Part shown: positions 52,701 through 64,000 of the stretch, one piece after another
How the letters are laid out: every line of letters starts with the position of its first letter
Numbering within the stretch: position 1 is the first letter of the stretch
From: Streptomyces sp. NA04227
GTDB lineage: Bacteria > Actinomycetota > Actinomycetes > Streptomycetales > Streptomycetaceae
NCBI RefSeq assembly: GCF_013364195.1
Contig: NZ_CP054918.1
Span: forward strand, 5,755,001-5,819,000
Reading direction: 5' to 3'
DNA length: 64,000 bases
Program-made: the position numbers and the translations under genes
Notes under the pieces: model-generated
What the model was told of the DNA's origin: nothing
What the model saw: only the letters and a program-made list of their open reading frames with translations
Databases searched by the model: none

Positions 52701-53502
52701 GGCCCGTCCCGAGTCGCTGGTCATGTGGGAGGCGCAGTTCGGTGACTTCGTCAACGGCGCGCAGACCGTCGTCGACGAGTTCATCTCCTCCGCCGAGCAG
52801 AAGTGGGGCCAGACCTCCGGCGTCACCCTGCTGCTGCCGCACGGCTACGAGGGCCAGGGCCCGGACCACTCGTCCGCCCGCCCGGAGCGCTTCCTCCAGC
52901 TCTGCGCGCAGAACAACATGACCGTCGCGATGCCGACGCTGCCCTCGAACTACTTCCACCTGCTGCGCTGGCAGGTGCACAACCCGCACCACAAGCCGCT
53001 GGTCGTCTTCACCCCGAAGTCGATGCTGCGTCTGAAGGCCGCGGCCTCCAAGACGGAGGAGTTCACCTCGGGCGGGTTCCGTCCGGTCATCGGGGACAGC
53101 GAGGTCGACCCGGCGAAGGTGCGAAAGGTCGTGTTCTGCGCGGGCAAGGTCTTCTACGACCTGGCAGCCGAGCGCGCCAAGCGCAAGGCCGAGGACGTCG
53201 CCATCATCCGCCTCGAGCGCCTGTACCCGCTGCCGGGTGCCGAGCTCCAGGCGGAGGTCAACAAGTACCCGAACGCCGAGAAGTACCTGTGGACCCAGGA
53301 GGAGCCCGCGAACCAGGGCGCCTGGCCGTTCATCGCGCTCACCCTGATCGACCACCTGGACCTGGCGGTCGGCGCCGACATCCCGCACGACGAGCGACTG
53401 CGCCGTATCTCGCGCCCGCACTCCTCGTCCCCCGCGGTCGGCTCCGCCAAGCGCCACCAGGCCGAGCAGGAGCAGCTGGTGCGCGAGGTCTTCGAGGCCT
53501 GA
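49726..53502 (+). CDS. kgd: multifunctional 2-oxoglutarate dehydrogenase (E1 with succinyltransferase-like domain), Kgd
   Basis: A 1258-aa enzyme of the actinobacterial Kgd/OdhA type. GTG 49726 gives [10 protein letters not shown]. The E1 N-terminal segment [19 protein letters not shown] is followed by an Ala/Pro/Lys linker (about residues 65-135). An acyltransferase (E2-like) domain carries the catalytic [16 protein letters not shown] at about 351. The thiamine-diphosphate dehydrogenase has [19 protein letters not shown] and [17 protein letters not shown], and a transketolase-like part follows. It converts 2-oxoglutarate in the TCA cycle, usually with a separate E2/E3. A long unrelated open frame on the opposite strand is a composition artefact. 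Confidence 0.98.
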
Positions 53503-53540
53503 GCCAGAAGCGGCCGGTGAGAGACCGGCGCACAGCAGTA

Positions 53541-53582
53541 CGGGAGGGCCCGTTCCGCGCATCCGCGGGGCGGGCTCTCCCG
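53541..53582 (+). terminator. terminator after kgd
   Basis: A 19-bp stem with three G-U pairs: CGGGAGGGCCCG... pairs with ...CGGGCTCTCCCG around a three-base loop, followed by TTGT. It begins 38 bp after the kgd stop. Confidence 0.8.
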
Positions 53583-53626
53583 CTTGTCGTGGGGCGGTCG
53601 CAGCCGGAGTCGGCCGTGTCCGGGCG

Positions 53627-53648
53627 GGTCAGGTCAGGTCAGGTCAGG
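53627..53648. repeat. GGTCA pentanucleotide repeat, four copies
   Basis: GGTCA is repeated four times without variation. On the minus strand the first unit provides the TGA stop of the YCII-like gene. Confidence 0.9.
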
Positions 53649-54192
53649 AAGGCCGTCCGCCGAAGTGCCAGTTGTGCACCTCGACAGCGGCGTACCGGTC
53701 CTCGGTCAGGACGGCGCGCGCCGTTGCCTCGTCCGGTGCCCGGACCAGTGCCGCCGTACCCAGCCAGGTGGTTCCGTCGTCGGCCAGCAGCGGCCCGTAG
53801 GCGATCGGTTCGTCCCGGCCGGGCGGCACCGCGAGATCGGCGGGCCCTCCCGCGCCCAGGCCGAGGACCAGGTAGCGGTTGCCGCCGCTCCGGCCGCCGG
53901 GGAAGTCCCACATGGTGCGCCCGAGCAGGTTGCGCCACCGCCGAAGCAGCACGTCCCGGTAGGCGCCCGCCTGGTAGTTGGGCTCGTCGAAGGCGAACGC
54001 ACGAGCGGCGGCGGGATCCGGCAGGTCGAGGATGTGCACGCTTCCGGTGGGTGTGCCGTCCTCGGCCAGGGTCGGGCCCCGGGCGATCATCTCCTTCGCG
54101 TACCGGTCCATGTAGGACAAGTGGTCCTCGTTCAGCTTGTCGCGCAGTGCTGCGGAGCCGGGGCGGTCGCGGTGGTAGCAGAGGAACTCCAT
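53644..54192 (-). CDS. YCII-related protein (two repeats)
   Basis: A 182-aa protein from ATG 54192 (MEFLCYHRDRPGSAALR). Two YCII-like ferredoxin-fold units can be traced. The first runs from LNEDHLSYMDRYAKEMIARGPTLAEDGTPTGSVHILDL to YQAGAYRDV. The second runs from YGPLLADDGTTWLGTAALVRAPDEATARAVLTEDRY to VEVHNWHFGG. The His-Asp type residues of YciI are present in the first unit. The role is unknown, probably a small dehydratase-like or lactone-type enzyme. Confidence 0.82.
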   Translation of the reverse strand: MEFLCYHRDRPGSAALRDKLNEDHLSYMDRYAKEMIARGPTLAEDGTPTGSVHILDLPDPAAARAFAFDEPNYQAGAYRDVLLRRWRNLLGRTMWDFPGGRSGGNRYLVLGLGAGGPADLAVPPGRDEPIAYGPLLADDGTTWLGTAALVRAPDEATARAVLTEDRYAAVEVHNWHFGGRPS

Positions 54193-54263
54193 GCCCAAAG
54201 GATCTCCGTGGCCGGGAGGCCGGGTCCAGCGGGTTTCCCCGCAGGCGGCGGTGGGCCCCGGCC

Positions 54264-57149
54264 TCAGATCGGCTGCGGCTCGAAGTCCCAGCCGCTCAGC
54301 GACTCGGGGGCGTGCGTGGCGCGTTCCAGGCCCTGGGTCAGTGGGTGTCCGGTGCCGAGGACGGCGACGGCGCGTGGATGGGCGTCGTGGGCGAGCGCGA
54401 GGGCCTCGTCCCGCTGCCCGGCGCGGGCCAGGGCGGCGACGCCGTTGTGGGCGCAGCCGAGGGCCCAGGGGTGGTCGCGGCCCACCGCCGTGTTCATCCG
54501 GTCGCGGTTGCGGCGGGAGAGTTCGAGTGCGGCGTCCAGGTCACCGGCGTCCCGCAGCAGCAGGGTGACGTTGTCGCGGGCGCCGATGGTGTACGGGTGG
54601 TCCTCGCCCTGGAGGGCGGCGTACAACGTGGCGGTGCTCTCCGCGAGTTCGCGGGCCTGCTCGGCCTGTCCGAGTTCGCGCAGCAGCATCGCGTAGTCGC
54701 AGGAGACCATCAGCGAGTCGGGGTGCTGGCCGCCGCGTCGCTTGAGCGACTTCTCGCGGACCTTGCCCATCATGGCGCGCGCGAAGTGGACGTCGCCCAT
54801 GCGCCGGGCGCACAGGGCCAGGTTGTGTTCCGCCCACAGGGTCTTGCTGTGGGTGCGGTCCAGGATCTGGCTGTGCAGGCGGGAGTTGTGCTCCTGGTTG
54901 CGCAGGGCTGGTTCGTACGCGCCGAGCAGCCGTAGTGTCCAGGCCTTGGCCATGGCGGAGTAGAGCGTGGTCGGGTGCTTGGGGCCGAGCAACTGCTCGC
55001 GGGCGTCGTGGATTTCCTCGTGCAGCGCGAGCGAGTCGCGGTAGCGGCCGAGGAGTCCGAGGGCCACGGCGAGGTTGCTGCGGATGTTGAGGGTGCGCGG
55101 CACCGTGGTGTCGCCGAGTTCGACGCCGGCGCCGCGCGCGGCGTCCTCGAACAGGGCGCGGGCCTCCTCGTACTTGCCCAGCGTCATCAGGGTGCCGCCG
55201 AGCCCGTCCTTGGCGCGGATGAGTTCGATGGGCCGTACGCCGGGTGTCTCGCGCAGCCGGTCCAGGGTCTGGCGGCCCACGAACTCGGCGTCCGTGTGGC
55301 GGCCCAGCCTGCGCAGCATGTTGGCCTGCTGGTGGACGGCGACCAGGACGGAGCGGTCGGTGGGTCTTGAGGTGGCGCTCCAGGACTCCACGGCCATCCG
55401 GCTGAGCCACCAGCCGTCGTGGTACTCGCCGCGCATCCGCAGGTACTCGACGCAGTTCAGGACGAGTTCGCGGACGTCCTCGTCGGTGGAGGCCAGAGCG
55501 CCGGAGGGCTCCAGGTGCGGGATGAGTTCGGCGTAGCGCGCCCAGTTGCCCGCCTGGCCGGGTTCGCGCGGGTCGGCGGCGACGAGGACCTGGCGGGCGG
55601 CGGCCGAGTGCCGCTCGCGGTCCTTCGGGGACTGGATGCCGACCACGTACCGGTGGAAGAGCCGGTGCATGCGCAGGGTGCTGACGCGTTCGATGCCGAG
55701 CCTGCCGGGCTCGTACTCCAGGCGCATCGAGGTGACCTCGGAGAGCTTGCGCAGCGCGGTGTTCCAGTCGCTCGGCTCGGCGACGAGCTCGCGCAGCGTG
55801 GGCGGCAGGTCGCTGGGCCGCGCGGACTGGAGCAGTCGTACGGGCACCAGTTCCGGGGAGAAGCAGGCAAGCAGGTTGAGCAGGTGCCAGGCGTCGGCGG
55901 CGTCGTCGCGCAGGGTGTTGAGTGTCTTGGCCCAGGCGACCTGGAAGCTCTCCGGGTAGTCGGCGGACTCCAGGACACCGAAGCCGTCCGGCTTGCCGCG
56001 CCGGATGTCGCGGACGTAGTCGGGCACCGAGGCGGTGGGCGTGATGTCGAGCCAGGCGCTCATCTGGTCGAGGAGCAGCGGCACGTCCTCGACGGCGGCG
56101 GCGAGCTGGTCGGCCTCGTCCTCGCTGAGCCGGGCGGTGCGGCGGCCGACGAAGGCGACGGACTCGTGCCGCTCGAAGGCGCCGACCGGCAGGGGCTTTC
56201 CGTACGCGGCCCACTCGGCGTGCAGCGAGGTGATCAGGACGTGGCCGCGGCCGTCGGGGACCAGATCGCCGAGCTTGTCGGGGGTGGTGGCGCCGTCGAG
56301 GACGAGCAGCCAGGGCCGGGCGGTGTCGGCCAGTTCGGCGCGGACCGCGTGGATGACGGTGTCGAGCTGCCCCGAGGCGTCGACGCCGAGGTGCCCGGCG
56401 AGCGCGGCGAACTGCTCCCTGGCGGTACGGCGGTTGGCGGCGGTGACCCACCAGACGATGTCGTACTCGCCCTTGAAGCGGTGGACGTACTCCAGCGCGA
56501 GCTGGGTCTTGCCGTAGCCGCCGGGGCCGTGCAGGACGACGGTGCCGCCGTCGGCGCGCAGCTGGGCGAACGTGTCGTGGACGCTCTCCAAGAGGTGGGT
56601 GCGGCCGGTGAAGCGGTGGTTGCGGCGCTGGGTGTTCCAGACGTCCGGGTGGTCGTCGGGGAAGCGGGGCCCGCGGGAGAGGTCGACCTCGGCCGGGCGG
56701 CCACCGAGCCCCAGGCAGTGAAGGACCCGGCGGCGTGCCGCCTGCGGATCGAGTCCGCGCAACTGCACCGGGCCGAGGGCGGTCACGGCCGGGGGCAGCG
56801 CCTGTGCGGCGATGCTCACGGCGGCCAGGCGCGTGCCGTACCGGTCCATGGCCTCGCGCAGCACGGCGGCCCAGGCGCGGGAGCGTTCACTGCCGAGCCG
56901 CTCGTGCCAGTCGTCGACGACGACCAGGACCTTGCCCGGCGCCCGGAGCAGATCGGCCAGGGCGTCCCCGGTGTGCGGCCGGTCGAGCGGGTTCCAGCGG
57001 ATGAGCGCGGTGGCGCCGCCCGCCGCCCGGATCTGGTGGGCGATCCAGTGGGCCCAGGACTCGCTCTGCCCGGCGAAGACCACCGTGATGTGGGCACGCT
57101 CTTGGTGGGCACGCTCTTCCTGGGAACGCCCTTCGCTGTCCCGCCCCAT
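54264..57149 (-). CDS. fxsT: TIR-like / NB-ARC / TPR STAND protein (FxsT-type)
   Basis: A 961-aa protein from ATG 57149, with AAGGAG seven bases upstream. The N-terminus (HITVVFAGQSESWAHWIAHQIRAAG...VLVVVDDWHERLG) resembles a TIR-type fold, although I cannot identify a certain catalytic Glu. A short linker leads to an NB-ARC STAND ATPase with P-loop VVLHGPGGYGKTQLALEYVH at about residue 208 and DTARPWLLVLDGA as Walker B. From about residue 590 there are many tetratricopeptide repeats (for example LRRLGRHTDAEFVGRQTL and LLGRYRDSLALHEEIHDAREQLLGPKHP). The family accompanies FxsA/FxsB peptides. It has its own promoter but lies directly behind fxsB. Confidence 0.9.
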   Translation of the reverse strand: MGRDSEGRSQEERAHQERAHITVVFAGQSESWAHWIAHQIRAAGGATALIRWNPLDRPHTGDALADLLRAPGKVLVVVDDWHERLGSERSRAWAAVLREAMDRYGTRLAAVSIAAQALPPAVTALGPVQLRGLDPQAARRRVLHCLGLGGRPAEVDLSRGPRFPDDHPDVWNTQRRNHRFTGRTHLLESVHDTFAQLRADGGTVVLHGPGGYGKTQLALEYVHRFKGEYDIVWWVTAANRRTAREQFAALAGHLGVDASGQLDTVIHAVRAELADTARPWLLVLDGATTPDKLGDLVPDGRGHVLITSLHAEWAAYGKPLPVGAFERHESVAFVGRRTARLSEDEADQLAAAVEDVPLLLDQMSAWLDITPTASVPDYVRDIRRGKPDGFGVLESADYPESFQVAWAKTLNTLRDDAADAWHLLNLLACFSPELVPVRLLQSARPSDLPPTLRELVAEPSDWNTALRKLSEVTSMRLEYEPGRLGIERVSTLRMHRLFHRYVVGIQSPKDRERHSAAARQVLVAADPREPGQAGNWARYAELIPHLEPSGALASTDEDVRELVLNCVEYLRMRGEYHDGWWLSRMAVESWSATSRPTDRSVLVAVHQQANMLRRLGRHTDAEFVGRQTLDRLRETPGVRPIELIRAKDGLGGTLMTLGKYEEARALFEDAARGAGVELGDTTVPRTLNIRSNLAVALGLLGRYRDSLALHEEIHDAREQLLGPKHPTTLYSAMAKAWTLRLLGAYEPALRNQEHNSRLHSQILDRTHSKTLWAEHNLALCARRMGDVHFARAMMGKVREKSLKRRGGQHPDSLMVSCDYAMLLRELGQAEQARELAESTATLYAALQGEDHPYTIGARDNVTLLLRDAGDLDAALELSRRNRDRMNTAVGRDHPWALGCAHNGVAALARAGQRDEALALAHDAHPRAVAVLGTGHPLTQGLERATHAPESLSGWDFEPQPI

Positions 57150-57182
57150 TGCCCCGCTCCTTCGCCGGACCGACCAACCGTT

Positions 57183-57207
57183 ACGCACAGTGCAGCCAAT
57201 TGTGCGT
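57183..57207 (-). promoter_or_regulatory. palindrome and promoter of the STAND gene
   Basis: ACGCACA (57183-57189) and TGTGCGT (57201-57207) are perfect 7-bp arms 11 bases apart. On the minus strand TTGACG overlaps one arm and a TGCGTA -10-like box the other, 17 bases apart. Binding would block this internal promoter between fxsB and fxsT. Confidence 0.6.
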
Positions 57208-57217
57208 CAAGTGCACG

Positions 57218-58444
57218 TTAACGAGGGCCGGTTGAGGCATTTGTGAGTCGGCCCGCGATGTGACGCACGAGTCGTTCCAGGTCCGCGCAGTACACGCTGG
57301 GGTGGCGGAATCCGCTGCCCTCGGCGTACCGGTGCACATAGTTCCCGCCGCCGCAGACCCCGAGCACGGCACAGGAGCTGCACTCGGGCGCGCGCCCTTC
57401 GACGCCGAGCTGACGGGCCGCGACGCCGGGGTGGCGCAGGGCCTCGTCGAAGCTGTGCGCGAAGACGTCCAGGCCGGTGCCGGGCGCCCCGGGGTAGGCC
57501 GACTTCAGCGAGTCCACCTGCTCGATGGCGCCGTCGGTGTCGACCACCACGGCCACCAGCGGGGAGAGCCCCACCGCCTCGGCGCTGCTGTCCAGGCCGT
57601 GCAGCAGCGCCGCGATCTCGCGGAACAGCCGGATCCGGGTGCGCATCCGGTCCGCCTCCCACCAGGCGTCGAAGAGCGCGGCCAGCCAGTCCCCGTACGG
57701 AGTCGGCCGCGGCCGGTGCCGCCCGGGCGCCGCGTCCCTGGGCAGGCCGGGCGGCGGCGCGGCCCAGTTGCCGTGCGGCAGCAGGAAGTCGACGCCGGGC
57801 GGGGCGAGTTCGAGCAGCGAGGTGTAGACGTCGACGGGGTCGGCGGCGAGGTCGATGGTGCACAGGATGCCCGCGTACGCGTCGGGGTGCGCGGCGAGCA
57901 GCCGGGCCGCGGCGCGGGCGGCGGGCCAGGCCGGGCGGCCCGCGTGGTCGGTGCGGCGGGCGTTGTGCGCGGCCCGGCCGCCGTCCAGGCTGAGCCCGAC
58001 CCGGATCCCCGCCGCCGCGAGCCGCCCGAGCCGGTCGGGGCTGAGCAGGGTGCCGTTGGTCTGCACGGTGGCGGTGATCTCGCAGTCGCCGGGAACCGCC
58101 GCGCGCACCGCGGCCAGGTAGTCGAGCACCGGCCCGGGCCCGGTCAACAGCGGTTCGCCGCCGTGCAGTTCGATACGGATCGCGGGCAGCCGGTGGGTAC
58201 GTACGTGCTCGGCGATCCGGTCCGCGGTGCGCCGTACGGTCGACTCGGGCACCCGGCTCGGCCGCTCGCGCCAACTGGTGTCCGGGGAGCGGTAGATGTA
58301 GCAGTACGCGCAGTCGAGATTGCAGCGCCCGTGCACCTTGAGCACGAACTGCCGGAAGGGAACGGCGGGCGCCGACTCGGCGGTGAGGCTGTGGTGCGGC
58401 CACTGCGGGTGGGTCGGGTGCGCCAGGTTCGGCGCGGCGGTCAT
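57218..58444 (-). CDS. fxsB: FxsB-family radical SAM/SPASM peptide maturase
   Basis: A 408-aa radical SAM enzyme, start ATG 58444 overlapping the fxsA stop (ATGA). The cluster motif is GRCNLDCAYCYIY (CxxxCxxC) at about residue 40. ELHGGEPLLTGPG is the GGE motif and ATVQTNGTLLS follows. The C-terminal SPASM region has CSSCAVLGVCGGGNYVHRY and VYCADLERLV, the cysteines for auxiliary clusters. FxsB-type enzymes are reported to join an aromatic side chain to a nearby residue, forming a three-residue cyclophane in a short C-terminal motif of the partner peptide. Confidence 0.93.
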   Translation of the reverse strand: MTAAPNLAHPTHPQWPHHSLTAESAPAVPFRQFVLKVHGRCNLDCAYCYIYRSPDTSWRERPSRVPESTVRRTADRIAEHVRTHRLPAIRIELHGGEPLLTGPGPVLDYLAAVRAAVPGDCEITATVQTNGTLLSPDRLGRLAAAGIRVGLSLDGGRAAHNARRTDHAGRPAWPAARAAARLLAAHPDAYAGILCTIDLAADPVDVYTSLLELAPPGVDFLLPHGNWAAPPPGLPRDAAPGRHRPRPTPYGDWLAALFDAWWEADRMRTRIRLFREIAALLHGLDSSAEAVGLSPLVAVVVDTDGAIEQVDSLKSAYPGAPGTGLDVFAHSFDEALRHPGVAARQLGVEGRAPECSSCAVLGVCGGGNYVHRYAEGSGFRHPSVYCADLERLVRHIAGRLTNASTGPR

Positions 58445-58608
58445 GGGCTGTCCTCGTACCGGGCGAGTACCGGCTCAGGGGAGCGGGCACGCTCGGCCAG
58501 TTCGCCGAGCAGCGCGGCGTACACGGGGTGTCCGTCCGCCGCCGCCTCGGGGAGCGGGGGCAGGGCGGGCAGGGGCGTGCCGCGGCTGTCGTCGTCGAGG
58601 ACGGTCAT
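58441..58608 (-). CDS. fxsA: FxsA-like ribosomal peptide precursor with divergent C-terminus
   Basis: A 55-aa peptide too short for most gene callers. It starts ATG 58608 within the stop of the vWA gene (ATGA) and ends in the ATGA overlap with fxsB. The N-terminus is MTVLDDDSRGTPLPALPPLP, followed by a helical part (HPVYAALLGELAERAR) and the tail VLARYEDSP. Canonical relatives end in F-x-S-x-x; here the corresponding five residues are Y-E-D-S-P, with Tyr for Phe and Asp for Ser. It is the only candidate substrate for the adjacent radical SAM enzyme. Confidence 0.8.
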   Translation of the reverse strand: MTVLDDDSRGTPLPALPPLPEAAADGHPVYAALLGELAERARSPEPVLARYEDSP

Positions 58609-61600
58609 GCTTCTCCTAGGAGGGATTGCAGACGGATCAGGGCCATGCGCAGTTCGTCGCTGGTGGGGGTCGGCGAGGAGTCGTCCGCCGGGAGGGACAG
58701 CGAGGCGAGGAGGGCGCCCTGGCCGCCGGTGAAGGCGGCGGGGTCGCTCTCGCGCAGTTCTCGCAGCGCCTCCCGGTAGGCGCCGAACGCCCTTCCCGTC
58801 TCGCCGAGTTGCTCCAGGACCGTGCTGAGGCTGGTCAGCGCGCGGGCCAGCTCCTGGGAGTCCTCGGCCTCGCGCGCGGCGTCCGCGCCGCCCCGGAAGT
58901 ACTCGACGGCCTTGCGCAGCAGCCGGTTCGTCCTGGTGCGCGCCCCGAGCAGGGCGGAGGCGGAGCCACGGCTGCGCAGGGCCCTGGCACGCAGCCGCGA
59001 GTCGTGCGACTCGCGGGCGACGGCGCCCAGTATCCAGTCGGCCTCGTGCAGATCGGCGAGGACTTCCTGGACGTCGAACCGGTGGATGTGCGCCAGGGCC
59101 AGGGCGAGTCGGCGCCGGTCCCGGTCCGGGTCCTGGGCGGAGGTGGCGTCCAGGACGTCGCGCAGGGCGCGTACGGCGGCGTCGGTGTCGGTGTGGGAGC
59201 GGGTCGCCAGGCCCTGGGCGGCGAGCCGGGCGCCGAGTTGCTCCAGGAGCGGGGTGTGCCGGGGGTCGTCCTGGGAGAGCAGGGAGAGGGACTTCTCCAG
59301 GTGGTCTATGGCCTGTTGGCGGTCCTCGGCGCTGCCGGTGGCGCGGTAGTGCTGCCAGTGGACGTGGGCCGCGCGACGGTGGCATTCGAGGAGCAGGACG
59401 GGTTCGGTACCGGCCACGGCCAGGGCGTCCGACAGTGCTTCGGCGGCCAGCAGCCAGTGGCGGTCCGCTCCTCCGTAGGCCGTTCTCATCAGACAGAGGG
59501 CGTCGGCGCGGTCGAGCAGGGCAGAGCACTGTTCGAAAGTGTCGAGGGTGCCCGGGGACACCGCTCGCCGGAAGTCGGCGGCCGCGCCCAGGGCCAGTTC
59601 GGGGCCCAGCTCACGGCGGTCGAGGCCACTCTCGCCGCGGTTCGGCCCGGCGAGGGAGCCCGCGGGCACCTCGACGTCGCCCTGCCCGCAGGCGTAGCGC
59701 GCCAGTCGCAGCCGCAGTTGCGCGCGCAGCAGCAGGCCCTGTGCCCGCCAGGGTGGCCGGGTCAGCGGTTCGGTGGCCGCCAGGGCGCGTGCCATGTACT
59801 GCTCGTACCAGGTGTGGGGTGCGGCCTCGGCCTCCACCCAGTCGTCCTCCGGGTCCCCGCTGAGGCGCACCCGGCGTACGTCGGGCCGGGCGCGGAATCC
59901 GTCCGCGGCCGCGATGCGCGCGCCTATCACCGCGTACCGGGCCAGCAAGGTGACCAGCAACTGCGTGGCCCGCCAGGCGGGATCGGCGGGGACTTCGGGC
60001 CGTGCCACCGAGAGGATTCCGCCGAGTACCACCACCGCCTCGTTGATCAGGAAGAACTCCGCCCACAGCGCGGCGAGCGGATCGTCGGGGCCGAGTTCCA
60101 GTGCGCGCCGCCGGGCCTCCTCGGGCACCGTCGGCGCTCCGACGCCGTGGCGCCGGGCCTGGGCCGCGCTCTCCGCGAGGGTCTCGGCGAGCGTCACCCG
60201 GGCCCGGAGCCACTCGGCGCTGCCCGGGTCCCGGTGTCCGATGCCCATGGCCGTCTGGCGTGCCGCGGCCAGGTCGGCCGCGTCGCCGCGCACCCGGTAG
60301 CGCAGGAGCAGCGCCCGGGCGAGGGCTTCGTGCGTCAGGGCCAGTGCGTCGAGCGGCTGTTCGGTGACACCCGCCTGCGCCATCTCCCTCGCCCAGGCCA
60401 GCCCCTCACCGCGCTCCGCGCGCGCGACCGCCTCCTGCGCCCGCGCCCTGAGTGCGTCCGTTTCCGCACGGACGGCGGTCGCCAACAGCGCGACGGCCCG
60501 GTCGAGTTCGGCCGGCTCCTCGTGCAGCCGGTAGCGCTCCCAGGCCGCGAGCGCCTCCTCCCGGATCGCCCCCGCCGCGGCCGGTCGCGGCTCCTCGCCC
60601 GCGGTCTCCGGCTCGACGTCGCGTGGCAGATACCGCCGCAGCACCCGCCCCGACACCTCGGCGAACGCCCGGACTTGGGGGTGCGGGGCGGGGGCACCGG
60701 TCGCGGCGGTGGTGGTGCCCGGCTCGGTGTCGAGGGCCACCGCGAGCGCCGGGAAGCTGTGCGCCGTACGGCCGAAGCGGCGTTCCAGGTAGGCGGAGCA
60801 GTACTTGTGCAGCAGGCGGGCCTCGTCCTCGGGGAGGTGGTCGAGGAGTGCGTCCTCCACGCCGTCCAGGAAGCGGTAGGCGACGGGGGCTTCGGAGTCT
60901 TCGGCACCGGCCGCCTCCGCCGCGGTCTCGGCGTTCTCCGCCTCCTCGGCCGACCGGTCGCGTTCGAGCAGTCCGCCGAGCAGCACCTCGGCCAGTACCT
61001 CGGGCCCGGTGCCCGCGAGCATGGCGCGCTGCACCAGTTGCATCACGGGCAGGGTGGTGGGCACGGCGGCGAGGTAGACGGCCAGCTGCCAGGCGAGCGG
61101 GGACGCGGAGCGCCTGAAGGCCCGTACGCGCGCGTCGCCCGCGAGATCCTGGCGGGCCCTGACCGGGGAGCGCGAGGCGGGGTGCCAGGCCTCGGCGAAC
61201 CCGGCCGCCGCCTCCAGGGACTGCCCGGTCGCCCCGGCGGACACCAGGCGCGCCCAGCCCTCCACCGAGGAGCGGCGCAGCGCGAGCACCGGTACCGGGG
61301 TCGCGCCCTGGCGGGTGCCGCCGCGCTGCCCCGTCGGCTCGAAGTCCAGCCTCCCGGCGGGCCCTTCGCGCCGGTGCAGCACGCCCCGGCGGGCCGGCAG
61401 ATGGGTGCGCAGCCACATCCGCTGCGGCAGCGGCTGCACCACGGCGACCGGGGCGAGCGTGCCCCAGGCGTGCAGCAGTCGCTGCATATGGCCGCTGCGC
61501 CACATCGGGCCCGCGCAGTCGCTGAGTACGAGGGTCAGGCGGCGTCCGGTGGGATCGGTCAGCCCGTGGGGGTCCTGGAGAGGTGCGCCGGGCCGGGCGG

Positions 61601-62333
61601 ACGGGGTGTGGCCGGGGCGTCCGCCGGGGCCCTCGTGCAGGTAGCGCACCTGCACCTCGCGGAAGGCGCCGGCCCGTTCGCAGACCTGGCGCAGTTCGAC
61701 GAGTGCCTGTTCCCACACCACCGTCGAGGTGGACAGGTCCATGAGCAGCAGCAGCCGGGCCGACCGGCGGCGGGCGTGCCGCAGCACCGGGACCACCAGG
61801 CCGGTGTCCGCCGCGCGTTCGGCGGTGGACTGTTCGTCCAGTACGCGCGGGGCGCTGCGGGCCGGGGCGCGGTAGTGCTGCAGGGGTCGTAACGCGCGCT
61901 GGAGTCCGAGCGGGTCGGGCAGCAAGGCGGCGGTGGGCGCGGGGACCGGTGCGCCCGGCGCCGCGGCGCCCTCGCCGCCGGTGCCCATGGGCACGAACAG
62001 CCGTGCCCGGTGTGCCGGTGGCGCCGTGAGACGGGGTTCGGGGGCGGGGACGAGCGGGGGCGAGGGCTGCTCCGGGGAGTCGCCGGAAGAGGCCGCCGCA
62101 GGTCCGGGGACACGCCCCGGAACGGCGGCCACCGGGCCGTCACCACCACTGTCCCCGTCCGCCGACATCCGGGCGGCCAGCCACAGGGCGTCCGCCAACT
62201 CCTCGGCGGTGGGCGTGAGTTCGGCTTCCCGCAGCCGGGCGACGAGCGCGATCAGGGCGTGCCGCGCGGCCGGGGCGGCACCACCTGGGGTGTCCGTCCC
62301 GGCCGGGCGCTCGTCCCTCGGGAAGCCGGTCAT
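58605..62333 (-). CDS. vWA-like / SAV_2336-type large regulatory protein with helical repeats
   Basis: A 1242-aa protein. After a disordered Pro/Ala/Gly-rich region (residues 50-150), a von Willebrand A-like domain is visible: ARLLLLMDLSTST at about residue 199 has the D-x-S-x-S metal site, and LTLVLSDCAGPMWRSGHM the following strand. A conserved block (QDLAGDARVRAFRRSASPLAWQLAVYLAAVPTTLPVMQLVQ) then matches the actinobacterial SAV_2336 N-terminal family. The C-terminal half is tetratricopeptide-like. It overlaps fxsA by ATGA and follows the MoxR gene by 7 bp, so vWA, MoxR and the upstream protein form one unit. Confidence 0.85.
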   Translation of the reverse strand: MTGFPRDERPAGTDTPGGAAPAARHALIALVARLREAELTPTAEELADALWLAARMSADGDSGGDGPVAAVPGRVPGPAAASSGDSPEQPSPPLVPAPEPRLTAPPAHRARLFVPMGTGGEGAAAPGAPVPAPTAALLPDPLGLQRALRPLQHYRAPARSAPRVLDEQSTAERAADTGLVVPVLRHARRRSARLLLLMDLSTSTVVWEQALVELRQVCERAGAFREVQVRYLHEGPGGRPGHTPSARPGAPLQDPHGLTDPTGRRLTLVLSDCAGPMWRSGHMQRLLHAWGTLAPVAVVQPLPQRMWLRTHLPARRGVLHRREGPAGRLDFEPTGQRGGTRQGATPVPVLALRRSSVEGWARLVSAGATGQSLEAAAGFAEAWHPASRSPVRARQDLAGDARVRAFRRSASPLAWQLAVYLAAVPTTLPVMQLVQRAMLAGTGPEVLAEVLLGGLLERDRSAEEAENAETAAEAAGAEDSEAPVAYRFLDGVEDALLDHLPEDEARLLHKYCSAYLERRFGRTAHSFPALAVALDTEPGTTTAATGAPAPHPQVRAFAEVSGRVLRRYLPRDVEPETAGEEPRPAAAGAIREEALAAWERYRLHEEPAELDRAVALLATAVRAETDALRARAQEAVARAERGEGLAWAREMAQAGVTEQPLDALALTHEALARALLLRYRVRGDAADLAAARQTAMGIGHRDPGSAEWLRARVTLAETLAESAAQARRHGVGAPTVPEEARRRALELGPDDPLAALWAEFFLINEAVVVLGGILSVARPEVPADPAWRATQLLVTLLARYAVIGARIAAADGFRARPDVRRVRLSGDPEDDWVEAEAAPHTWYEQYMARALAATEPLTRPPWRAQGLLLRAQLRLRLARYACGQGDVEVPAGSLAGPNRGESGLDRRELGPELALGAAADFRRAVSPGTLDTFEQCSALLDRADALCLMRTAYGGADRHWLLAAEALSDALAVAGTEPVLLLECHRRAAHVHWQHYRATGSAEDRQQAIDHLEKSLSLLSQDDPRHTPLLEQLGARLAAQGLATRSHTDTDAAVRALRDVLDATSAQDPDRDRRRLALALAHIHRFDVQEVLADLHEADWILGAVARESHDSRLRARALRSRGSASALLGARTRTNRLLRKAVEYFRGGADAAREAEDSQELARALTSLSTVLEQLGETGRAFGAYREALRELRESDPAAFTGGQGALLASLSLPADDSSPTPTSDELRMALIRLQSLLGEA

Positions 62334-62340
62334 GTCGTCG

Positions 62341-63342
62341 CTACCGTGGCCCGCGGTCCAGTGGCCGCATCAGGAGCCCCGCGATCTCCTCGCGGCGCCT
62401 TGGCTCCTGCCGTGCGGTGTGCTGGGCCAGGAAGATGGCGTTCAGGAGCTGGTCGGTGGGCCGCAGCGCACCGTCCGACTCGGCCTGGGTGAACTGGCCG
62501 ACGAGGTCGAGGTTCTCGTCGTAGGACTCGGCGCCGAAGTGGGCCAGGATCATCGCGGCGAGCCGCTGGTCGCGCGGCGGTTCCAGATCCAGCGGGACAC
62601 AGCGGCGCAGCAGCGGGGCGGGGAACTCGCGCTCGCGGTTGCTGGTCATCACCACGACGGGGAACGCGCGACAGCGCACCCGGCCGCCGGTGACCGGCAC
62701 CCGGCGGCCGTCGTCGGTGAGCACGTGCACGGTCTCCTGGCCCGGCCGGTCGGCGATGCGTTCCAGCTCCGGGATGCCGAACTCGCCCTCCTCCAGGACG
62801 TTCAGGAGGTCGTTGGGCAGGTCGATGTCGCTCTTGTCGAGCTCGTCGATGAGCAGCACCCGGGGCCGGTCGGTGGCCAGGAGCGCGGTGCCCAGCGGCC
62901 CGAGCCGGAGGTAGCGGCCGATGTCCTCGGCCTGGCCCGAGCCGAGCTGGTTGTCCTGGAGCCGCCCGATCGCGTCGTAGGTGTAGAGCCCGTCCTTGAG
63001 TTCGCTGCGGCTGACCACGGCCCACTGCAGGACCCGGCCGAGCCCGAGTTCGTGCGCCAGGGAGTGGGCGAGCGTGCTCTTGCCGGAGCCCGGCTCGCCG
63101 GTGACCAGGAGGGGGCGGCGCAAGTAGAGGGCGGCGTTGACGAGTTCGAGGGTCTCGGTCTCCTGTACCGGCATGGGTACCGGGGACTCGCCGAGCCGCC
63201 GCAGCGAGGCGCTGTCCAGCGGCGGCACCTCGTACTCCACCGGCTCGGCGTCGAAGGCGCGCCACGGCGGCGGGGCGGGCAGCCGGCCGATCCGGCCGGG
63301 ATCGGGGCCGCCTGCGCCCTGGTAGACGAACCATCCGGTCAC
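62341..63342 (-). CDS. MoxR-type AAA+ ATPase
   Basis: A 333-aa ATPase from GTG 63342 (GAGGAG six bases upstream). Walker A is LLVTGEPGSGKSTLAHSLAH at about residue 80. Walker B is RVLLIDELDKSDIDLPNDLLNVLEEGEF. FPVVVMTSNREREFPAPLLRRCV carries sensor 1 and the arginine finger. MoxR ATPases work with vWA-domain proteins, and such a protein is encoded next. It is part of the minus-strand conflict-type operon. Confidence 0.93.
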   Translation of the reverse strand: MTGWFVYQGAGGPDPGRIGRLPAPPPWRAFDAEPVEYEVPPLDSASLRRLGESPVPMPVQETETLELVNAALYLRRPLLVTGEPGSGKSTLAHSLAHELGLGRVLQWAVVSRSELKDGLYTYDAIGRLQDNQLGSGQAEDIGRYLRLGPLGTALLATDRPRVLLIDELDKSDIDLPNDLLNVLEEGEFGIPELERIADRPGQETVHVLTDDGRRVPVTGGRVRCRAFPVVVMTSNREREFPAPLLRRCVPLDLEPPRDQRLAAMILAHFGAESYDENLDLVGQFTQAESDGALRPTDQLLNAIFLAQHTARQEPRRREEIAGLLMRPLDRGPR

Positions 63343-63458
63343 GGCTTGCTCCTCGTCGACGGTCGGTGGCTGACCACGAACTGGCCGACAGGGCGGCGGG
63401 CACCCACAACGGGCCCCTGGGAATGTACCCACCCAGCGCCAGGTAACAGTTGATTTCC

Positions 63459-63484
63459 GGCCATACAGCCATGCTGTTTTGGCC
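63459..63484 (-). promoter_or_regulatory. imperfect palindrome upstream of the MoxR gene
   Basis: GGCC-AT-ACAGC-CAT-GCTGT-TTT-GGCC reads as nested inverted repeats in the 247-bp spacer between the window-edge gene and moxR. It could be an operator for an operon start at moxR. No clear -35/-10 was found. Confidence 0.4.
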
Positions 63485-63589
63485 CTTCGCAGTCCGAGTC
63501 GTAGGGGGACTGCCGGGTCGTACGGGACGGAGGGCACGTACCGGGGCGCGTACCCGAGCGGGTGCGCGGCGGCGTGCGGAGGCGGCCCG

Positions 63590-64000
63590 TCACGGCGGGG
63601 AATCCGCGGGCTCGGCGTCCTCGGGCGGCAGCGGCCGGTCGGGGTCGTCGTAGAGCAGGGCGACCGGTTCGGCCCAGCGCAGCCCGTCGTGGCCGCGGCT
63701 GATGTCGTGCCGGATGTGCCGCAGCCGGTCGGGCAGTTCGGCCGGTGAGCAGAGATCCCCGAACAACCGCTCCACTCCCGCGTGCAGGTCCTCGCAGTCC
63801 GCGTGGCAGCCGCCGACCGCGTGCCCCTCGATGTCCCACAGCGCCATGCCGTGCCCGCTGTCCAGCGCCAGCCGCATCACCTTGCGGCCGAGACCGCGCC
63901 CGGCGGGCCTGCACATCACGGGCACGCTGGTGGCCGCGAGACCGTGGAAGTACCGCCCCCGCGGCTCCCGGTCCCGCTCGGGCACCCGCTGCGCGACCCA
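63590..64000 (-). CDS. VMAP-like protein, C-terminal part only (window edge)
   Basis: An open frame that enters from beyond 64000 and stops at 63590, giving 136 visible residues. It contains VMRLALDSGHGMALWDIEGHAVGGC, LPDRLRHIRHDI and VALLYDDPDRPLPPED. These recall the C-terminal domain of vWA-MoxR-associated proteins (VMAP-C), where an 'ALW' strand, a Leu-Pro-x-x-Val/Leu-Arg helix and a final 'LLWDDPDRLP'-like strand are typical. The N-terminal effector part, for example a protease or caspase-like domain, is outside the window. The assignment rests on a remembered family pattern. Confidence 0.65.
   Translation of the reverse strand, partial: WVAQRVPERDREPRGRYFHGLAATSVPVMCRPAGRGLGRKVMRLALDSGHGMALWDIEGHAVGGCHADCEDLHAGVERLFGDLCSPAELPDRLRHIRHDISRGHDGLRWAEPVALLYDDPDRPLPPEDAEPADSPP

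Follow-up and report, generated by a model that had tools for sequence, protein, structure and literature searches.

Streptomyces sp. NA04227 encodes, on the minus strand of the 64,000-nucleotide stretch analysed here (the window; contig NZ_CP054918.1, positions 5,755,001 to 5,819,000), a locus that combines a ternary VMAP-MoxR-vWA module with a small precursor peptide, a radical SAM maturase of the FxsB family and an NLR-like protein. We tentatively read this locus as a chromosomal, peptide-linked NLR switch. The genome comprises 7.9 Mb in one contig, and the closest relatives of the window FxsB come from Streptomyces. In the direction of transcription the unit consists of Trypco1, trypsin-VMAP, MoxR, vWA/SAV_2336, precursor peptide, FxsB and TIR-NB-ARC-TPR. 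As judged from the sequence, the MoxR, vWA, precursor, FxsB and NLR-like ATPase genes are one tight set, with Trypco1 and trypsin-VMAP ahead of it. The intergenic distance between moxR and the vWA gene is 7 bp, the vWA and peptide genes and the peptide and fxsB genes share 4-base ATGA overlaps, and about 29 bp separate fxsB from the NLR-like gene. The VMAP-moxR spacing of 250 bp is not tight and contains a promoter-like element. The parts of the unit within the window are the following.

63590..64000, minus strand: VMAP-C part (PF20028) of the VMAP gene; the full gene (L004:12591-14648) encodes 685 aa with a trypsin-like N-terminus
62341..63342, minus strand: MoxR AAA+ ATPase (AAA_5), GTG start, Walker A and B kept
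58605..62333, minus strand: vWA/SAV_2336-type protein, 1242 aa (NF041121, 419 bits)
58441..58608, minus strand: precursor peptide, 55 aa, tail ...LARYEDSP (NF041709, 30.1 bits, under the cut-off of 55)
58450..58458, minus strand: predicted cyclophane triplet Tyr-Glu-Asp, residues 51-53 (motif [YHF]-[EDS]-[DN] in 59/59 peptides)
57218..58444, minus strand: FxsB-family radical SAM/SPASM maturase, 408 aa (TIGR04269, 416 bits)
54264..57188, minus strand: TIR-like/NB-ARC/TPR (NLR-like) protein, at most 974 aa (NF040586, 698 bits; TIR-like fold)

A preliminary description of this DNA had listed six minus-strand genes in this order, with a 7-bp gap and ATGA overlaps from moxR to fxsB. Coordinates and hidden Markov model matches bear out the genes, their order and the junctions; the 'FxsA-like' label given to the peptide is not borne out. 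The systems it called 'fused' are adjacent genes, not one protein. Beyond position 64000, where it looked for the effector domain, VMAP is completed as a 685-aa Trypsin_2-VMAP protein preceded by the Trypco1 gene, which lies outside the window (L004:14641-15720; PF19493, 60.9 bits).

The precursor peptide and the NLR-like protein

The association of the peptide maturase with the NLR-like protein is broader than its association with VMAP. We sampled 296 genomes of the class evenly, applied to each family its own E-value limit, and found FxsB in 58 genomes, VMAP-C in 50, NF040586 in 88 and SAV_2336 in 53. Of the 79 FxsB places, at least 68 have an NF040586 gene within 12 kb, against 14 with VMAP-C. 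We therefore regard the NLR-like protein as the regular partner of the peptide, and the VMAP core as an addition made in one lineage; the ternary VMAP-MoxR-vWA module is an optional part. VMAP-C accompanies FxsB in 11 of 26 places within the genus of the window (11 of 16 for FxsB frames shorter than 700 aa) and in 3 of 53 places outside it, two of which share one VMAP-C. None of the FxsB frames of 700 aa or more (17 of the 79 places) lies near VMAP-C. Conversely, FxsB accompanies 11 of the 34 VMAP-C places in the genus; the accessible text of PMC7159879 puts peptide modules in actinobacterial VMAP systems at about 20%. Because the class-wide figure is only 14 of 79, the linkage of FxsB to VMAP is a lineage trait and not a rule. 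Of the two outcomes that the preliminary description had named as refuting it, an edge gene lacking VMAP-C and a rare adjacency of moxR/vWA and fxsAB, neither came about, the second as judged from the genus counts.

The peptide ends in RYEDSP, with the terminal residues Tyr-Glu-Asp-Ser-Pro, and not in FxSxx. TIGR04268 (FxSxx-COOH) does not match the 55-aa sequence, and its sole NCBIfam match is NF041709, the 'YxD-tail cyclophane-containing RiPP peptide' (ribosomally synthesized and post-translationally modified peptide), at 30.1 bits; since this falls under the cut-off of 55, the peptide is not assigned to the family and is classed only as working like a member. Relatives were sought in 79 fetched loci (numbered L below) picked by FxsB similarity, the best 80 of 84, and therefore biased to near relatives. 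A profile built from relatives finds a peptide near FxsB in 74 of these loci, or 75 with the window; it misses L059, L069, L072, L075 and L076, of which L059 and L075 carry a peptide elsewhere in the locus. Among the 63 of the 75 peptides, the window's included, that were picked for alignment, 62 match NF041709 and 26 match TIGR04268 at E<=0.01.

In loci without a gene for an HExxH protein, all 59 peptides, the window's included, keep [Y/H/F]-x-[D/N] near the tail, by a lenient pattern search over the final 32 residues that allowed 2 to 14 residues after the motif. The aromatic position is Tyr in 50, His in 6 and Phe in 3, and the third position is Asp in 58 and Asn in 1. The six peptides counted as His carry AYHED, where the ring could instead be Tyr-His-Glu. 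The motif is that of Tyr-Asp cyclophanes, and the crosslink in the window peptide is predicted from it. According to the accessible text of PMC11002830, three-residue cyclophane rings have Phe, Tyr or His as ring partners, and YxdB makes a bond from Tyr C3 to the Asp beta-carbon. With the YxD-tail triceptides (YxdB, PMC11002830; NF041709) the window system shares, as far as that text goes, a C-terminal Tyr-x-Asp and a radical SAM/SPASM maturase; it differs in that its peptide scores under the family cut-off and is encoded inside a VMAP ternary operon, with a crosslink that is predicted.

The maturase itself scores 416 bits with TIGR04269, over the cut-off of 370. Its radical SAM CxxxCxxC motif is kept in 78 of 78 homologues, and the four SPASM cysteines in 79/79, 78/79, 78/78 and 78/78. 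With the FxSxx-COOH/FxsB systems (TIGR04268/TIGR04269) the locus shares this enzyme and the TIGR04268 matches of 26 of the 63 peptides in its group; it differs in a window peptide that lacks FxS.

The modifying enzymes encoded with the peptide vary between related loci. In 18 of the 79, FxsB is followed by an HExxH frame no more than 3.5 kb downstream, in 16 of these between FxsB and the NLR-like gene; the one frame that was scanned is TIGR04267, 'aKG-HExxH-type peptide beta-hydroxylase', with 174 bits against a cut-off of 40. A HESGH string in L033 was left uncounted because it falls within the stretch of the NLR gene. Peptides were extracted from 16 of the 18 HExxH loci: all 16 have Trp in the last 22 residues, and 15 have W-x-F or W-x-x-F (L070 has GWQS), a motif found in none of the 59 peptides from loci without HExxH. 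This association is attributed mostly to common descent, since two changes suffice on the FxsB tree. The window locus has no HExxH gene, with about 29 bp between FxsB and the NLR gene, and the best TIGR04267 match in the whole genome, 14.9 bits, is under the cut-off. Two further genomes of the genus, spotted by the joint presence of VMAP, SAV_2336 and NLR without FxsB, have the locus beside kgd with an HExxH gene (TIGR04267, 148 and 139 bits). They retain MoxR, vWA, VMAP and NLR at 28-58% identity to the window's, and a short open reading frame ahead of the HExxH gene has a leader that looks related by eye and no Y-x-D tail. Three marking modules are seen beside kgd: FxsB alone with Y-x-D, FxsB plus HExxH with a Trp-type tail, and HExxH alone with neither. 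Trimming by a metallopeptidase was rejected for the window, as no such gene in the genome is above cut-off and the HExxH family is a peptide beta-hydroxylase by its NCBIfam name; in the accessible text of PMC7159879 the HExxH protein is termed a metallopeptidase and treated as central to the peptide module. The earlier proposal of a modified peptide acting in the circuit draws support from the conservation of the gene set, from the gene overlaps and from the two genomes with a different peptide-modifying enzyme.

The NLR-like protein matches NF040586 (FxSxx_TPR) at 698 bits against a cut-off of 300. It has a TIR-like fold, and its Pfam TPR matches are strong. Pfam TIR_2 (24.2 bits, cut-off 28) and NB-ARC (23.0 bits, cut-off 23.5) both stay under threshold. 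The P-loop GK, the Walker B Asp and the MHD-type His are each kept in 78 of 78 homologues. The TIR residue W106 is kept in 77 of 78. By the W-x3-E rule we take the catalytic Glu to lie four residues after this Trp, a position assigned by sequence; it is occupied by Leu in 71 homologues, Phe in 3, Val in 2, Pro in 1 and Ala in 1, and by Glu in 0 of 78. A Glu two residues further on is kept in 33 of 77. The protein shares an invariant P-loop, Walker B and MHD-type His and C-terminal TPRs with bacterial NLR-related STAND (signal transduction ATPases with numerous domains) defence proteins, and differs from them in the missing TIR Glu and in having no PADLOC match.

The proteins of the ternary module also retain their functional residues. 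The edge gene was correctly named as VMAP-C: PF20028 matches its 136 aa within the window at E 1.8e-16, and the full 685 aa at E 3.5e-31 (109.3 bits, cut-off 27). The VMAP N-terminus is Trypsin_2 (E 2.3e-14), the sole protease recognised in the unit, with the triad H47, D105 and S179 kept in 57/57, 60/60 and 61/61 of the rows with letters there. MoxR matches AAA_5 at 34.9 bits (cut-off 22), and its homologues keep Walker A GK in 64/64 and Walker B DE in 63/63. The vWA protein matches NF041121 (SAV_2336_NTERM) at 419 bits (cut-off 200). Its metal ion-dependent adhesion site (MIDAS) keeps Asp199 in 64/64 and Asp272 in 65/65, and Ser at two positions in 54/63 and 55/63; scanned for the fused TPRs expected of vWA proteins where a separate AP-ATPase is present, and for other domains, the protein gives no Pfam family at E<=0.01. 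PADLOC models do not match the VMAP end, vWA, peptide or NLR, and MoxR and FxsB match weakly, to other ATPases and viperins.

Several loci depart from these arrangements. In L006, the nearest relative, the tail ...VVARYEDAP fits the profile well and the leader in that frame (L006:3700-3880) is unlike the family, for which a frameshift or a sequencing error are candidate causes. A second precursor-like gene, with tails such as AFYEDGPYQL, is found downstream of the NLR-like gene in L032, L035, L038, L051, L053, L054 and L056, 4.4-4.6 kb past the start of the FxsB match. L045 (9802-19359) encodes a YED peptide, FxsB, a TIR_2 protein, a MoxR-like ATPase and then a 1630-aa protein in which about 650 residues without assignment precede TIR-NB-ARC-TPR; here the NLR may be fused to a sensor part. 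L039, L049 and L068 have an FxsB and a peptide related to those of L045. In L105 (G163:C12:75000-92000), three NLR-like matches follow in a row downstream of a single YED peptide-FxsB pair; its spacing and peptide suggest that it shows the L045 locus over a greater length. A trypsin cut after Arg50, between LAR and YEDSP, was considered for the window peptide; the Arg is not conserved in relatives.

Chromosomal place and the region upstream of moxR

All five components, VMAP, MoxR, vWA, FxsB and NLR, are present in 59 of the 79 fetched loci, a grouping beyond chance in a set weighted to near relatives, and by coordinates these have the gene order of the window. The exception is L059, which has the full gene set with NLR, ternary genes and peptide on the strand opposite to FxsB. 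Several incomplete loci end at contig edges, and L039, L045, L049, L068, L051, L053, L054 and L076 have no close ternary core. The gene kgd (2-oxoglutarate decarboxylase/dehydrogenase) is near 54 of the 59 complete loci and follows the NLR gene by 0.06-4.0 kb in the 53 measured, L059 being left out of the measurement. The gene upstream of Trypco1, which we take to be DUF4097-type, is kept in 58 of the 79. In the window's locus, two frames between Trypco1 and this flank gene (L004:15825-18345) are without match in 79 related loci at E<=1e-10, perhaps as a local insertion. Searches of phage records at E<=1e-20 return nothing for FxsB, and a search of the plasmid set at E<=1e-80 returns a single weak match for the NLR (32% identity, in an 11.9-Mb record). 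The locus keeps one position on the chromosome, close to kgd, which distinguishes it from a mobile defence island; a mobile island was rejected on the conserved flanks.

A second conserved feature of the locus is the stretch ahead of moxR.

63458..63463, minus strand: upstream half of the inverted repeat TGGCCG...CGGCCA, candidate operator (TGGCCG, conserved spacing)
63425..63447, minus strand: SigB-family-type promoter-like element (GTTA at 63447-63444, 13 bases, GGGTAC at 63430-63425)
63343..63420, minus strand: conserved non-coding moxR leader (by column identity), with the second half-repeat TCGGCCAG at 63388-63381

The inverted repeat flanks the promoter-like element on both sides. TGGCCG occurs in 20 of 61 sequences, the window included, at a nearly constant distance from the MoxR P-loop. 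In 20 relatives the element aligns without gaps at a column identity of 0.71-0.83 per 15-base bin, a conservative figure because L063 and L077 fit poorly. It has no clear codon rhythm, and the first moxR codons show little too. GGGTAY is present in 35 of 61 windows upstream of moxR against 246 of 7083 other windows from these loci, and shuffling brings the count down to an average of 5.1 of 61; GNNT-N13-16-GGGTAY is present in 18 of 61 against 42 of 7083, all counts being drawn from related loci that are not independent. A GTGT or similar word commonly lies 14 bases upstream of GGGTAY. According to the accessible text of PMC8346170, promoters of SigB homologues in S. coelicolor have a GTTT or GNNT word, followed after a spacer by a -10 element that starts with GGG. 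The window copy, GTTA-N13-GGGTAC, has a weaker -35 word that falls outside GNNT. Genome-wide, the -10 and leader pattern has its only exact copy at this locus and 8 sites with 3 mismatches, a total of 9 against 4 for the reversed control. A structured RNA leader was rejected: the RNAalifold covariation term is -0.16 with both-side change in 1 of 23 pairs, the fold z is -0.28 for the window strand, and Rfam gives no match at E<=1 in window positions 53000-64000. A promoter/operator is favoured over an RNA for this stretch.

Most of the locus has already been described in outline. What sets this variant apart is its peptide tail, the lack of an HExxH enzyme, the degenerate TIR and a promoter-like element of the stress type. 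The VMAP ternary architecture with an FxSxx-type peptide-processing module was published in 2020 in eLife (PMC7159879), and the gene combination is therefore not new. As far as its accessible text goes, both systems have VMAP, MoxR, vWA, a small peptide, a radical SAM-SPASM enzyme and, downstream of the peptide genes, a separate TIR-AP-ATPase-TPR gene, and the window differs in its YxD tail, the absence of an HExxH gene from the locus and a TIR without the expected Glu. The same text mentions neither a promoter nor a sigma factor. The Figure 4 legend there describes mutual exclusivity among peptide-module and Trypco-trypsin components, and the window locus combines the two. The preliminary interpretation is supported in part, in that it places the modified peptide in the circuit. 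A literature search by title and abstract opening, with subscription papers mostly outside it, returned no report of a YxD peptide in a VMAP operon, of its promoter or of experiments on it. A 2022 paper on actinobacterial triceptide maturases, cited in PMC10885120, may cover part of the chemistry.

Proposed mechanism and alternative readings

Under the tentative reading of a peptide-linked NLR switch, FxsB would link Tyr51 of the precursor to the beta-carbon of Asp53, yielding a C-terminal Tyr-Glu-Asp cyclophane. The trypsin-like domain of VMAP might trim the leader or serve as a triggered protease, and the MoxR-vWA pair might bind the acidic cyclophane tail at the MIDAS site and set a threshold. 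As a ligand, the modified peptide would hold or release the STAND ATPase of the NLR-like protein. The degenerate TIR of this protein would serve in assembly and not in NAD cleavage, and the outcome would be growth arrest or death upon stress or infection. The steps we would bet on are the Tyr51-Asp53 cyclophane and the peptide as NLR ligand. An immune function of the locus is plausible. A wider proposal, which we consider unlikely, is that the locus is a fixed chromosomal immune-like switch requiring a marked ribosomal peptide whose chemistry is interchangeable: inside the cell the mark would serve as a 'self' label, recognised by a TIR-dead NLR and watched over by a sensor with a trypsin domain, a RiPP-based form of bacterial guard or decoy.

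Some observations weigh against the switch. Among the 79 surveyed FxsB places, 11 lack a listed NLR in the 12-kb range, the linkage being a lower bound; the window peptide is under the cut-off of the YxD model NF041709; the peptides of the HExxH-only loci are weak, one matching the profile at E 0.0008 and the other giving none (E 0.29); and inheritance at a fixed place near kgd also fits a housekeeping or developmental role. The last point leads to a somewhat unlikely alternative, in which the peptide-NLR switch is a stress or development regulator governing growth or differentiation under a SigB-family promoter, and not an immune system. Such a regulator agrees with the conservation of the promoter-like element ahead of moxR and with the flanks of the locus, where kgd lies no more than about 4 kb from the NLR gene in 54 of 59 complete loci and the upstream flank gene is retained in 58 of 79. 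It also agrees with the phage and plasmid searches, which gave no FxsB match and one weak NLR match at the limits given above. The patchy presence of the locus (11 of 28 genus genomes have a VMAP-linked FxsB) and the module swapping speak against it, and the accessible text of PMC7159879 argues that the VMAP family is a conflict system.

That text also proposes 'a peptide toxin or signal', and the peptide could be exported, with the NLR-like protein as its receptor or immunity factor. We consider this quite improbable: inspection by eye shows no hydrophobic signal stretch in the precursor, and NCBIfam and Pfam scans match no transporter family among the seven genes of the unit. A TIR-like fold on a STAND ATPase could belong to a canonical TIR-NADase NLR that kills through NAD depletion. 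With W106 kept in 77 of 78 homologues and the catalytic Glu expected under the W-x3-E rule absent in 78 of 78, such an effector is very unlikely. Finally, 65 of the 79 FxsB places have no VMAP-C within 12 kb, which might suggest unrelated modules that are merely co-located; the 4-base overlaps between genes, the five components together in 59 of 79 related loci and the fixed element before moxR make this scarcely credible.

To our knowledge, FxsB-group cyclophane peptides, whose chemistry is known, have no known role, and VMAP systems, whose roles are predicted, have no known ligand. This locus joins the two at a fixed place in many culturable Streptomyces, which makes the questions of role and ligand testable, and the natural module swaps at one locus open the role of the peptide to test. 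If the peptide does control the NLR-like ATPase, RiPP chemistry would be a means of intracellular bacterial signalling or immunity, beyond antibiotic production.

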